DNA of 64,000 bases from Lewinellaceae bacterium (GTDB lineage Bacteria > Bacteroidota > Bacteroidia > Chitinophagales > Saprospiraceae): assembly GCA_024644235.1 (NCBI GenBank), contig JAHELJ010000007.1, positions 1-64,000 of the forward strand, read 5' to 3'. Position numbers and translations under genes: made by a program. How positions within the stretch are numbered: position 1 is the stretch's first letter; every line of letters begins with the position of its first letter. Below, one piece after another: positions 53,171 through 57,737 of the stretch. Under the pieces are notes generated by a model, which did no database searches, was not told the origin of the DNA, and saw only the letters and a list, made by a program, of their open reading frames with translations.

Positions 53171-53247
53171 AGACCTTTAGACCCTAGACCTTAGACCCTA
53201 GACCTTAGACCTTAGACCTTTAAACTCTAAATATTAAACCCTCAACC
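53171..53247. repeat. Heptamer tandem repeat, TAGACCT type
   Basis: About seven copies of a 7-base unit (TAGACCT/TAGACCC) run from 53171 to 53219. The 7-base period continues in diverged form as TTAAACT, CTAAATA, TTAAACC and CTCAACC up to 53247. The array lies between the DoxX-like gene and the GcvT operon, upstream of both. It looks like a slippage-prone minisatellite with an ageing edge. Confidence 0.85.
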
Positions 53248-53389: not shown

Positions 53390-54610
53390 ATGCCTATCAA
53401 ATCACCTTTCTTTCCCCGTACGTCTGAACTCTGCACCAGTATGTTGTGGAAGGAATGGGCCGGCTACTACGCTGTCAATAGCTATCAAATTCCTCACGAT
53501 GCTGAATATTTTGCGTTCAGGGAATCTGCCGGCCTGATCGATATCACCCCCTTGTTTAAGTATAGGGTTACCGGACCAGATGCAGCGGAATATCTGGCGA
53601 GGATCATGGTGAAAGATATCACCAAGCTTAAGGTAGGCAGGGTAGCCTACTGTTGTTGGTGTAATGATGCTGGGAAAATCATTGATGACGGGACCGTGAT
53701 GCGACGGGATGAATATGAGTTTTTTGTCACTTCGGCCGATCCTAGCTTCAGCTGGTTCAGTCGATTTACCCGGGGCTACCAGGTTGAATTGGAAGATATC
53801 TCGGATCAAATTGCCGCACTAGCCCTGCAGGGCCCATCTTCCCGAGCAATTCTGAAGCGGATTTGTGATGCGGACCTGGACCGGCTGAGGTTCTTCCGAA
53901 CTACATCTGCACGATCCGGTGATAACGAGTTTCACATATCCCGCACCGGCTATACCGGTGATTTGGGCTATGAGCTTTGGGTAGAGAATAAAAATGCTTT
54001 AAGACTCTGGGATGCTATCATGGAAGCGGGAGCTGACTACAATATCCGTCCAGCTGGTCTAGATGCCCTGGATATGACCCGGGTAGAAGCTGGATTGATA
54101 TTAAAGGATGTGGACTACTTCAATGCACAGCATGTCCTAATTGACGACCGGACGTCATCACCGTTCGAAGTCTCCCTGGGTTGGATGGTGGACCTCGACC
54201 GGAGGCCATTTATTGGTCAGAGAGCACTACAGTTGGAAAAAGCAGAGGGGTCAGCATGGTCTCTGGCAGGCATCGAACTTGAATGGACCGAGATCGAAGA
54301 TTTGTATGCTCGATATGGGCTTCCACCAGAGGTGCAACACCATGCCTGGAGATCATCAATACCAATCTATACGGACAAGAGCCAGGGTAAACAGATAGGA
54401 TATGCCACCAGTGGAACGTGGTCTCCCCTTCTTAAAAAAAATATTGCTCTGGCAACTCTCCAAAGCAAATATGCGACTCCGGGCACAATGGTAGCCATGG
54501 AACTCTCGGTAGAGCATGTGCGACACACAGTCCATGCCTGGATATGTGATCCTCAGTTCTACAATCCCGAGCGAAAAAGATCTAATCCTGTAAAAGACAT
54601 AGCAGCATGA
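53390..54610 (+). CDS. GcvT-like folate-dependent aminomethyl/methyltransferase
   Basis: Member of the GcvT/DmdA/LigM/YgfZ superfamily, which uses tetrahydrofolate to accept one-carbon units. Seen in order: FRESAGLIDITPLFKYRVTG (residues about 44-63), the loop CNDAGKIIDDGTV near 95 that carries the catalytic Asp in GcvT, RTGYTGDLGYELWVE near 185, and GLDALDMTRVEAGL near 225. At 406 residues it is close to GcvT, but no gcvH or gcvP is nearby and its ATGA-overlapping partner is a flavoprotein. A role in demethylating an N-, O- or S-methyl substrate is inferred. Confidence 0.85.
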   Translation: MPIKSPFFPRTSELCTSMLWKEWAGYYAVNSYQIPHDAEYFAFRESAGLIDITPLFKYRVTGPDAAEYLARIMVKDITKLKVGRVAYCCWCNDAGKIIDDGTVMRRDEYEFFVTSADPSFSWFSRFTRGYQVELEDISDQIAALALQGPSSRAILKRICDADLDRLRFFRTTSARSGDNEFHISRTGYTGDLGYELWVENKNALRLWDAIMEAGADYNIRPAGLDALDMTRVEAGLILKDVDYFNAQHVLIDDRTSSPFEVSLGWMVDLDRRPFIGQRALQLEKAEGSAWSLAGIELEWTEIEDLYARYGLPPEVQHHAWRSSIPIYTDKSQGKQIGYATSGTWSPLLKKNIALATLQSKYATPGTMVAMELSVEHVRHTVHAWICDPQFYNPERKRSNPVKDIAA

Positions 54611-56199
54611 GCTCAGCAAACTACGATGCTATCATCATCGGTGGCGGTCACAATGGTCTTATCTGCGCCGCTTATCTGGCCAAAGCAGGCAGGAAGGTTC
54701 TTGTCTTGGAAAAGCGACACGTATTGGGAGGAGCTGCCGTCTCCGAAGAATTACATCCGGGTTTTACTTTTTCAGTAGCTAGCTATGTCGTCAGTCTCTT
54801 TCGTCCTCACATTATTCGTGAACTAGATTTGGCTAAGCATGGGTATGAGGTTATTCCTATGGATTGCTCATTCCTTCCGTTGCCCAATGGCGATTCACTC
54901 GCCCGCTGGGCTGATGGGAATCGGTCGCGCCGCGAGATTTCCCGGTTCAGCAGAAAGGACGCAGAGACCTATCCGGAGTTTAGCCGGGTGATGACGCACA
55001 TGGGTAAGCTAGCCAAGGCAGTCATAGACCATCCAGCCCCTGATATCACATCACTTCGCCCTGCTGAATTGAGCAATATGCTCCGGCTAGGTAAATCTTT
55101 CAAGTCCTTGGGGCCTGAACTGCTGCATCTCAATATCAAGTTGGTGACTATGAGTGCCGCCGATTTTCTGGACCGGTGGTTTGAATCTGACACGCTCAAA
55201 GCACCCATGTCCGTCAGTGGAATCATAGGTACATTTCAGGGCGTCCGCTCACCAGGAACTGCATACGTTTTGCTCCACCATTATATGGGACAACTTGATG
55301 GTGTATTTCGATCCTGGGGATTTTCCAAAGGGGGTACTGGTGGAATCAGCATGGCCTGTGCCCGAGCAGCCGAAGCATTTGGAGCTGAGGTCAGAACAAA
55401 TTCTCCCGTGCAACACGTGCTGCTGAGAAATGGCGAGGCCAAGGGTGTTGTATTGGAAAATGGAGATGAGCTTCTGGCTAATCAGATCATATCGAACCTG
55501 GATCCAAACCGCACCTATCTAAAGATGGTAGGTGAAGAGCATTTGCCGCAAGAGGTAGCTAATGATATTAAACGATATAAGCTGCGAGGAAGTTCGGGCA
55601 AGGTAAATCTGGCACTTGACCGGGTTCCTGAGTTTAGCTGCCGGCCCGGTATCGGCGATCATCTCAGGGGTGACGTGGCTATCGCACCCAGCATCGATTA
55701 CCTGGAGAAAGCATTTGACCAGGCAAAGTATGGTGATTTTTCCACCAGGCCGTATATCAATGCAGTAATACCCACCCTGACCGATCCCACCTTGGCTCCG
55801 CCGGGTAAACATATCCTTTCCTGTTTTGTGCAGTATGCTCCCTATCACATCAAGGAAGGCGCAGAGAATTGGCCAAAGTTTCGTGATGCCTTTGGTGAGG
55901 CGGTCATAGATACCATGGAGGAATATGTGCCCGGATTGAGAAACATGATTATTTACAAACAGGTACTCACTCCCTGGGATCTGGAGCAACAGATGGGACT
56001 CACAGAAGGAAATATTTTCCAGGGCGAACTAAGTCTCGAGCAACTTCTGTTTCAGCGACCGGTTGCCGGTTATGCCAAATACAAAACTGCAATCAATAAT
56101 CTATGGATGTGTGGCTCTGGCACCCATCCGGGTGGAGGCATCATGGGAGCAAGCGGAGAACTCTGCGCCAAGACTATGTTGCAAAATCGATCCGTTTAA
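54607..56199 (+). CDS. PYROXD2-like FAD-dependent oxidoreductase A
   Basis: Flavoprotein of 530 residues in the phytoene-desaturase-like amine oxidase group, closest in pattern to PYROXD2. The N-terminal dinucleotide fold is IIGGGHNGLICAAYLAKAG, followed by VLEKRHVLGGAAVSEELHPG. The C-terminal FAD-contact motif is CGSGTHPGGGIMGASG. Middle segments (FSKGGTGGISMACARAAEAFG) are also typical. It is translationally coupled to the GcvT-like gene by an ATGA overlap and followed 11 bases later by a diverged paralogue. Substrate unknown; it may oxidise an amine whose carbon unit passes to the GcvT-like protein. Confidence 0.88.
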   Translation: MSSANYDAIIIGGGHNGLICAAYLAKAGRKVLVLEKRHVLGGAAVSEELHPGFTFSVASYVVSLFRPHIIRELDLAKHGYEVIPMDCSFLPLPNGDSLARWADGNRSRREISRFSRKDAETYPEFSRVMTHMGKLAKAVIDHPAPDITSLRPAELSNMLRLGKSFKSLGPELLHLNIKLVTMSAADFLDRWFESDTLKAPMSVSGIIGTFQGVRSPGTAYVLLHHYMGQLDGVFRSWGFSKGGTGGISMACARAAEAFGAEVRTNSPVQHVLLRNGEAKGVVLENGDELLANQIISNLDPNRTYLKMVGEEHLPQEVANDIKRYKLRGSSGKVNLALDRVPEFSCRPGIGDHLRGDVAIAPSIDYLEKAFDQAKYGDFSTRPYINAVIPTLTDPTLAPPGKHILSCFVQYAPYHIKEGAENWPKFRDAFGEAVIDTMEEYVPGLRNMIIYKQVLTPWDLEQQMGLTEGNIFQGELSLEQLLFQRPVAGYAKYKTAINNLWMCGSGTHPGGGIMGASGELCAKTMLQNRSV

Positions 56200-56210
56200 G
56201 AGAAAATACC

Positions 56211-57737
56211 ATGGAGAAACCTTACGATGCCATCATTATTGGAGCCGGACACAATGGTCTTATTGCTGCGACATATCTGGGCAAGAAGGGCAAAAAAGTA
56301 GTAGTCCTGGAGAAGAATACCTTCCCTGGCGGTTTAGCAACCAGGACTGAGTTCCACACTGGCTATCGGTCACCTGGAATTTTGCAGGATTCAAGTCTGC
56401 TTGATTATAAAGTAGTACAGGACCTTGGCCTGGAAAGCAAGGGGCTGGTCATACAAAACCAAAGGCCAGAGATAATGCTCCTAGGTAGAAATCATGATGA
56501 GATATTGCTGGAGCAGGATGCTGAGAAAAGCGTCGCTGCCATCGCTAGGCACTCAAAAAAAGATGCCCAGCGATACCTCGACTATCTCCAATTTATTCAA
56601 GACATCCGTCCATTCATTCAATCAGTCTTCAGTAACATGCCACCCGATCTTTCCGGCTTTGCCCCGGGTCAAGTGATGAAGTTGGGACAGCTCGGCTGGA
56701 AGCTAAGGCGGCTGGGTAAGGCTACCATGCTGCAGCTGTTGAAAGTGGCACCGATGTGCGTGAGCGATTTCCTGGATGAATACTTTGAAACTGATTTACT
56801 CAAGTCCGGCTTGTCCTTCCCTGCACTACTCGGATCTTTCACCAGTCCCAGATCAGCATATACCACCTTGAACCTGTTGATGTGGGATTGTCGTTCTAAG
56901 TGCTACCTCCCGGGTGGACCGGCAGCCCTGATTGATAGCCTCCTCAAGGCAGCAGAATCATTGGGAGTTGAAGTCAAGATGGATAGCGAGGTAAAGAGCA
57001 TCCACTTTGATGATAAGAATTGCGTGGAGGGTATCGCCCTTGAAAATGGTGATACCTACCTCTCACCTATTGTCTTGTCATCAGCCACGCCCAGGCATAC
57101 GTTCTTTGATCTCGTCCCAAATTACCAGCTCAGTTTTGAGCTGGAGCACGATGTGAAAAATTACCGGTCACGAGGAATGACTGCCAAAATGAATTTAGCT
57201 CTAGATCGTATTCCCAGCCAGGTGAAGGCATCGATTATTCGCTTGGGTTCAGATTGGGCTACGATGGAGCTTGCGTTCGATCCCTCAAAATACAGGCAAA
57301 TACCGGAGGAACCCACCCTCGAGTTGTCAATCCCTAGCCTTGGTGATCCGCAACTCGCTCCTGAAGGACATGCAGTACTTTCTATCCTGGCCCACCATAT
57401 CCCTTACAACTTAGAGGGTGGCTGGACAGATGCTGCAAAGACCACCTTGAGTCAAGCCATCCTTTCCGCATTGGATAGCTATCTACCCGGGATTAGTGAA
57501 ACGATCGTGGGATCTGAGATCATCACCCCTCAGGATCTGGAGAACAATTATGGTTTGACAGAAGGACAGATCTTTCATGGGGAACACGCAATTGATCAGA
57601 TTCTAGCCCGACCCATTCCCTCCTGTGCTCGTTATGCGACACCCTTAGCGGGTCTATTTCTTTGTGGCAGTGGCACATTTCCCGGTGGAGGAATAACGGG
57701 TACGCCAGGTAGGTTGGCAATAGAAGCTATTCGATGA
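56211..57737 (+). CDS. PYROXD2-like FAD-dependent oxidoreductase B
   Basis: Second flavoprotein of the same family, 508 residues, clearly paralogous to its neighbour: IIGAGHNGLIAATYLGKKG at the start, VLEKNTFPGGLATRTEFHTG next, and CGSGTFPGGGITGTPG near the end. The overall match to paralogue A is moderate, so the pair diverged long ago and may form a heterodimer or act on successive steps. I start at the ATG at 56211, which places the dinucleotide fold at residue 5; the frame is open further upstream inside the previous gene. Confidence 0.88.
   Translation: MEKPYDAIIIGAGHNGLIAATYLGKKGKKVVVLEKNTFPGGLATRTEFHTGYRSPGILQDSSLLDYKVVQDLGLESKGLVIQNQRPEIMLLGRNHDEILLEQDAEKSVAAIARHSKKDAQRYLDYLQFIQDIRPFIQSVFSNMPPDLSGFAPGQVMKLGQLGWKLRRLGKATMLQLLKVAPMCVSDFLDEYFETDLLKSGLSFPALLGSFTSPRSAYTTLNLLMWDCRSKCYLPGGPAALIDSLLKAAESLGVEVKMDSEVKSIHFDDKNCVEGIALENGDTYLSPIVLSSATPRHTFFDLVPNYQLSFELEHDVKNYRSRGMTAKMNLALDRIPSQVKASIIRLGSDWATMELAFDPSKYRQIPEEPTLELSIPSLGDPQLAPEGHAVLSILAHHIPYNLEGGWTDAAKTTLSQAILSALDSYLPGISETIVGSEIITPQDLENNYGLTEGQIFHGEHAIDQILARPIPSCARYATPLAGLFLCGSGTFPGGGITGTPGRLAIEAIR

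Follow-up and report, generated by a model that had tools for sequence, protein, structure and literature searches.

What would a bacterium do with a folate protein of the GcvT type whose gene is overlapped by a flavoprotein gene and followed, a few bases on, by another? The question is raised by a stretch of 64,000 nucleotides from a Lewinellaceae bacterium of the phylum Bacteroidota (contig JAHELJ010000007.1 of assembly GCA_024644235.1, positions 1 to 64,000), called the window here, in which three genes of the forward strand, designated T, F1 and F2, lie in tandem. T (53390-54610) encodes a GcvT-like folate protein of 406 residues, apparently of a demethylase type, with Pfam matches to GCV_T (1.9e-63) and GCV_T_C (1.8e-11). 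F1 (54607-56199) encodes an oxidoreductase of 530 residues dependent on flavin adenine dinucleotide (FAD) (PF01593/PF01266), and F2 (56211-57737) encodes its paralogue, a second FAD-dependent oxidoreductase of 508 residues (PF01266/PF13450/PF01593); both match the amine-oxidase, DAO and NAD_binding_8 models of Pfam. From comparisons of sequence we hold, with moderate confidence, that the trio would act as a three-gene oxidative N-demethylase, which transfers the methyl carbon of tertiary or secondary N-methyl amines to tetrahydrofolate (THF) as methylene-THF.

A preliminary description of this DNA had listed the tandem order, an ATGA overlap between T and F1 and an 11-base gap before F2. All of these are borne out by the coordinates: the ATG of F1 occupies 54607-54609 and the TGA of T 54608-54610, and the gap runs from 56200 to 56210. 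The start of F2 was taken as the ATG at 56211 (MEKPYDAIIIGAGHNG); the list of open reading frames opens F2 at 56103, within F1. The same description had taken the flavoproteins, under its own name of PYROXD2-like, for a diverged pair, which agrees with their identity of 35%, and had pointed to an Asp-bearing IIDD loop in the folate protein, which is present at residues 97-100.

Conservation of the three-gene neighbourhood

The T-F1-F2 neighbourhood is conserved and does not reflect chance. Within the window's phylum, T was found at E ≤ 1e-100 in 10 of 395 genomes, the next matches, from 1.8e-55, looking like GcvT, and F1 was found at E ≤ 1e-90 in the same 10 genomes. Beyond the phylum sample we assembled 89 T loci, given L numbers here, from the best 80 of 587 relatives in a scan of species genomes and nine further loci. 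Taking the best 80 biases the sample toward close T sequences, and all but L132 are titled as metagenome-assembled genomes. The titles of these best 80 name Bacteroidota, Rhodothermales, Zixibacteria, Dadabacteria, Planctomycetota, Acidobacteriota, Gemmatimonadota, Chloroflexi, Marinimicrobia, Eisenbacteria, Actinomycetota, Polyangia, Oligoflexales and Proteobacteria.

An F gene lies near T in 80 of the 89 loci. The arrangement is a tandem with T before F and a gap of less than 1.2 kb in 59 (56 of them at 100 bases or less, median 15), and a divergent F less than 3.6 kb from T in 21. In two loci F is found elsewhere in the locus, farther off. In four loci without F, T lies close to the end of a contig; of the genomes concerned, L085's and L130's contain a strong F1, L094's a weak F at 6e-125, and L097's no F at 1e-120. 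The last three loci also have no F, and two of their genomes carry a strong F pair elsewhere and the third a weaker F (9e-134). When equal flanks of 1.5 kb were compared, F stood beside T in nine of nine relatives (L004-L012) and beside none of 45 other gcvT-like matches, a control set retrieved from the window's own genome, the phylum sample and near relatives and not drawn at random. Given the co-occurrence in the phylum, the equal-flank comparison and the linkage over 89 loci, a chance neighbourhood was rejected, and the conserved association for which the preliminary description had proposed a search is thus found in relatives.

The distribution of the set is patchy, since among 60 near relatives, the window's own genome included, that genome alone has a T at the strength used for the phylum. 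At 1e-100, T was present in 5 of 337 sampled genomes from the class of genome G451 and in 3 of 350 from the class of G452, the centre genome counted in each case. Such a pattern resembles that of a gene set often lost or moved.

Kinship of the folate protein and the two flavoproteins

T looks like a protein of the demethylase type, not of the type that works with H-protein, in which the folate site is mostly kept. Its top NCBIfam model is that of trimethylamine N-oxide (TMAO) demethylase, or Tdm (NF053776), matched in its C-terminal part at 260 bits against a cut-off of 1100, and its top solved relative is likewise a TMAO demethylase (9q5a, 1.8e-48). T stays under the cut-offs of the three GcvT models listed (227 against 300 for NF001567, 174 against 236 for TIGR00528 and 151 against 459 for NF010093), under that of the DmdA model NF009133 (126 bits, cut-off 410) and under that of the soxA model TIGR01372 (168.5 bits, cut-off 1164). 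A tree was built from 53 T, four alphaproteobacterial T, 45 GcvT, one DmdA-like protein and a Tdm fragment. In it the T clade had a support of 0.982, rising to 0.997 for the clade that takes in the alphaproteobacterial T, and both sets of T, Tdm and the DmdA-like protein were split from all 45 GcvT with a support of 1.0; the position of Tdm inside that group had a support of only 0.057.

Single residues follow the same division. At position 227, where 45 of 45 GcvT have Arg, the 53 T have Leu (44) or Met (9), and Tdm has Leu. The positions D100, Y188 and E195 are presumably part of the folate site, from the roles we take their counterparts to have in T. maritima GcvT. In the 53-row alignment of T, D100, E195 and R231 are kept in every row, D99 in 52 and Y188 in 51, the other two having F; the positions aligned to D96, E195 and R231 of T. 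maritima GcvT are D, E and R in all 53. The preliminary description had made the folate-binding residues a point to be checked by structural alignment, and in our alignment, by sequence and not by structure, they are kept nearly throughout the 53 rows, with L012, from an alignment of the window's phylum, as an outlier.

For the comparison of conservation, the alignments held 52 of 77 relatives for T, 52 of 59 for F1 and 41 of 51 for F2, loci such as L006-L012 being left out. By mean column identity, F1 (66%) is better conserved than T (55%) and F2 (45%). F1 has 51-85% identity to its 52 relatives, and F2 has 30-48% identity to its 41. A tree without outgroup, built from 78 F1 and 69 F2 segments of which some were partial, set F1 apart as a group free of F2 (support 0.994). 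Of 53 F1, 52 have a GxGxxG motif close to the N-terminus.

The predicted models of F1 and F2, with mean predicted local distance difference test values (pLDDT) of 87.6 and 94.0, place both proteins in the CrtI/amine-oxidase fold. In a model-based comparison the closest solved fold for both was the gamma-carotenoid desaturase 4rep, and NicA2 (nicotine oxidase) and putrescine oxidase came further down, for F1 together with monoamine oxidases. A second fold comparison for F1 gave Z scores of 34.6 with 4rep and about 24 with putrescine oxidase, identity being 12-24% in the 50 rows shown.

Adjoining putative demethylase genes and the choice of substrate

What substrate might such a set of proteins act on? 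The genes beside it in relatives offer a guide. By tblastn, a Rieske oxygenase gene is present in 24 of the 89 loci, in 22 of them at most 304 bases from a gene of the module (18 on the same strand, 4 not); the remaining two Rieske genes lie 2.4 and 4.4 kb away. A Rieske gene follows F2 in the close relatives L064, L074 and L078. In two Marinimicrobia, F2 is followed at 27-28 bases by an MttB-family gene (L113 12343-13788 and L115 12342-13007), and the same slot after F2 is occupied, at 0-9 bases, by a Rieske gene in L114, L119 and L136, also from Marinimicrobia, and in L093, titled as a bacterium. Rieske and MttB genes taken together, 26 of the 89 loci thus have a gene for a first-step demethylase. 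When 16 genomes with the module were probed as a whole, nine had a Rieske match at 1e-30.

The affinities of these neighbours appear to lie with enzymes of quaternary amines. For both Rieske queries tried, carnitine monooxygenase (CntA) ranks first among solved relatives, and for the L064 protein the fourth is 3vca, the stachydrine demethylase Stc2. GbcA is the top model for seven Rieske proteins, with scores of 132-239 bits where the cut-off is 670, and is also first, far under the cut-off, for one further Rieske protein. The Rieske cluster motif is present in 15 of 15 proteins and a CxxC pair in 11 of 15; such a pair beside the catalytic iron is given as a mark of some group-V Rieske enzymes in a published study (PMC10952381). 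The MttB-family gene of L113 matches PF06253 and is probably of the kind without pyrrolysine, because its frame of 481 codons has no internal stop. For the demethylation of glycine betaine, a second study (PMC12478193) names GbcAB, Bhmt and a PF06253 methyltransferase as alternatives.

The following scheme would accommodate these data. F1 and F2 would oxidise an N-methyl group of the amine to an iminium, and T, with its folate-site positions kept, would bind THF and accept the carbon to give 5,10-methylene-THF. For some of the relatives, the probable supplier of the substrate would be the adjoining Rieske enzyme, of the carnitine/betaine type, or the MttB-type methyltransferase. Such a first step would strip one methyl from a trimethylated amine and leave two, to be handled by two flavoproteins. 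The presence of two flavoproteins per T would fit either a mixed complex or two demethylations in succession, the dimethyl amine passing through the monomethyl to the free amine.

The linked quaternary-amine enzymes point to N-methyl compounds over dimethylsulfoniopropionate (DMSP) or methoxy compounds. The preliminary description had suggested a folate-linked oxidative demethylation or one-carbon transfer and had put all of these forward for assay; the demethylation draws partial support from the linkage, the folate positions and the N-methyl context, and DMSP and methoxy substrates come out less favoured. Dimethylglycine and sarcosine are our leading guess at the substrates, a tentative one, and the main alternative is a methylated amino acid or polyamine. 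Methylated amino acids receive some support from genes resembling dimethylarginine dimethylaminohydrolase (DDAH), M20 family members, amino-acid permeases (APC) and threonine-aldolase-like genes; anywhere in the 89 loci, permeases were counted in 17, DDAH/arginine-deiminase-like genes in 7 and threonine-aldolase-like genes in 3, one or two of each kind having been put through a scan by name. Methylated polyamines receive some from genes for PotF-like binding proteins, PuuC-like aldehyde dehydrogenase and glutamine-synthetase-like proteins in some of the proteobacterial sister clusters. These clusters have the order F1-F2-T, and some carry genes for BetI-like regulators as well.

Several observations weigh against the N-demethylase scheme. 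No Rieske match was obtained by tblastn in 65 of the 89 loci, many of them short, and the close relatives L072, L075, L076 and L077 have no Rieske gene after F2 though the sequence continues. Seven of the 16 module genomes gave no Rieske match at 1e-30, one of the seven, that of L113, having MttB. The window's own genome has neither an MttB match nor a Rieske match, the latter from one query whose empty result is not decisive alone, so the route there may begin at the tertiary amine. The DDAH/arginine-deiminase-like, M20 and permease neighbours, like the PotF-like, PuuC-like and glutamine-synthetase-like genes of the sister clusters, fit other substrates. As for the proteins, the closest fold of F1 and F2 is that of a carotenoid desaturase, and only 36 of 42 F2 have the GxGxxG motif close to the N-terminus. 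An eight-row alignment of T from the window's phylum has D99 in three rows, with G in four and Q in L012, and D100 in seven, L012 having E and hence Q-E at 99-100; Y188 varies there too. Finally, in L096, L098, L104 and L138, T is co-directional with the Rieske gene and F1 faces away.

The gene order in these four loci, where T is followed by the Rieske gene and a permease gene with F1 on the other strand, is what one would expect if T were a stand-alone formaldehyde trap for the neighbouring Rieske enzyme, and F1 and F2 oxidised the carbon skeleton or a non-methyl amine. We regard this as unlikely. It would find a precedent in the closest solved relative of T, the TMAO demethylase, whose C-terminal domain is the model for such a trap, and the amine and polyamine genes that surround the sister clusters would suit it. 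It is at odds with the 65 loci, and the window's genome, in which no Rieske match was found, and with the one-to-one tracking of T by F1 in the phylum sample.

It also appears improbable that T is a redox-neutral methyltransferase like DmdA, which would form 5-methyl-THF from a sulfonium or quaternary amine and leave the demethylated product to be oxidised by the flavoproteins. The place of T in the tree, on the side of Tdm and the DmdA-like protein and away from GcvT, would agree with such a role, as would the quaternary-amine surroundings of part of the loci and the G-D that several T of the window's phylum have at 99-100. However, the DD pair of GcvT and Tdm is found in 52 of 53 T, in contrast to the N-D of the lone DmdA-like protein compared, and the 26 loci with a Rieske or MttB gene already possess an enzyme for the first step.

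It is very unlikely that the two flavoproteins are desaturases or ketolases of carotenoids and stand beside T by accident. Their top NCBIfam model is CrtO and their top fold 4rep, but the CrtO scores are 310 bits for F1 and 220 for F2 against a cut-off of 1000, those with crtI_fam are 138 and 127 against 238, and F is linked to T across phyla. A carotenoid role was rejected on these model scores and the linkage, no search for other carotenoid genes having been made. Least credible is an ordinary or duplicated glycine-cleavage T-protein, which would account for the Pfam GCV_T match and was rejected because the window's genome has just two such matches, T and an ordinary gcvT on another contig, because T scores under the three GcvT cut-offs, and because it belongs to a separate clade in which the Arg at 227 of 45 of 45 GcvT is absent from 53 of 53 T.

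Other genes occur near the module less regularly. PurU was found near F in 3 of the 89 loci and IclR regulators in 3, one of each being named by NCBIfam. A homocysteine S-methyltransferase gene lies near T in four loci by clustering (L090, L106, L112 and L113) and in three by tblastn; it was given little weight because it is on the same strand as T only in L113. The window's genome has one PF02574 protein, on another contig. In the window itself, the trio's neighbours are an O-acetylhomoserine sulfhydrylase gene on the opposite strand, above its NCBIfam cut-off, a gene for a small protein that matched no NCBIfam model, and a gene on the opposite strand whose amidohydrolase-type NCBIfam matches are all under their cut-offs. 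The absence of gcvH, gcvP and sarcosine oxidase genes, which the preliminary description had stated, holds for these immediate neighbours, the only genes checked.

Some further features were seen in passing. Beside the F1-F2-T cluster of an alphaproteobacterium (L193 9206-10468) is a second GcvT-like gene, DmdA-like, whose score against the model of DMSP demethylase is 349 bits, the cut-off being 410. The actinomycetotal genome that contains L106 has another cluster (L189 848-13100) with Pot-type transporters, a Rieske gene, an acetate-CoA-ligase-like gene and two F1-like genes (41 and 43%), and no T match in that stretch. Directly upstream of T in L107 (6745-7998) is a gene whose start reads, by eye, as a DAO-type FAD oxidoreductase. 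In the window, seven tandem copies of the heptamer AGACCTT lie at 53171-53220, shortly upstream of the T gene; the pattern TAGACCYTAGACC, with one mismatch allowed, has five matches in the window, all within 53171-53220, where 0.05 would be expected.

Known demethylases and the wider meaning of the trio

How does the trio compare with systems already described? Tdm couples demethylation to THF, and its C-terminal domain makes it the closest solved relative of T, with the DD pair and the Leu at 227 in common. It differs in being a single chain, of 763 model positions or 793 crystal residues, whereas T has 406 residues and is encoded with two flavoproteins; to our knowledge, Tdm has no flavoprotein partner. 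In dimethylglycine dehydrogenase, sarcosine dehydrogenase and dimethylglycine oxidase, flavin-dependent oxidation of an N-methyl group is combined with a GcvT-like domain that yields methylene-THF, and T aligns to the C-terminal parts of the dimethylglycine oxidase and dehydrogenase chains. The flavin domain of these enzymes is fused and of the DAO type, whereas the flavoproteins of the trio are separate, duplicated and CrtI/amine-oxidase-like. The SoxABDG sarcosine oxidase has separate subunits, with the GcvT-like part in SoxA. T differs in scoring under the soxA cut-off, and the flavoproteins reach 23-26 bits with soxB, against a cut-off of 529.

With GcvT itself, T shares the fold and the folate-site positions D100, E195 and R231, and differs in the missing Arg 227 (53 of 53) and in forming its own clade. 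The fold of F1 is shared with CrtI, CrtO and CrtD and with flavin amine oxidases such as putrescine oxidase, NicA2, monoamine oxidase and renalase. It differs from these in the low identity of 12-24%, and F1 and F2 do not reach the crtI_fam and CrtO cut-offs. By these scores the trio would belong to none of the named families and may be likened to the dimethylglycine/sarcosine dehydrogenases and Tdm. Among the titles that the literature searches listed, none describes such a set; most subscription papers lay outside those searches.

A broader proposal, which we put at a little short of an even call, is that the trio represents a widespread, so far undescribed N-demethylase in which two CrtI-fold flavoproteins and a free-standing GcvT-type protein replace the fused dimethylglycine/sarcosine dehydrogenase. 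It would act after interchangeable Rieske or MttB enzymes and deliver the methyls of betaine-type compounds to folate, not to free formaldehyde. The exchange of Rieske for MttB in one slot yields a simple hypothesis on the product that the two would share. The name phytoene desaturase is often given to flavoproteins of the CrtI/CrtO branch. If the group described here does couple to folate for N-demethylation, many genes would gain a testable function, and a betaine-derived one-carbon route would be indicated in Acidobacteriota, Chloroflexi, Gemmatimonadota, Marinimicrobia and Planctomycetota, among others.

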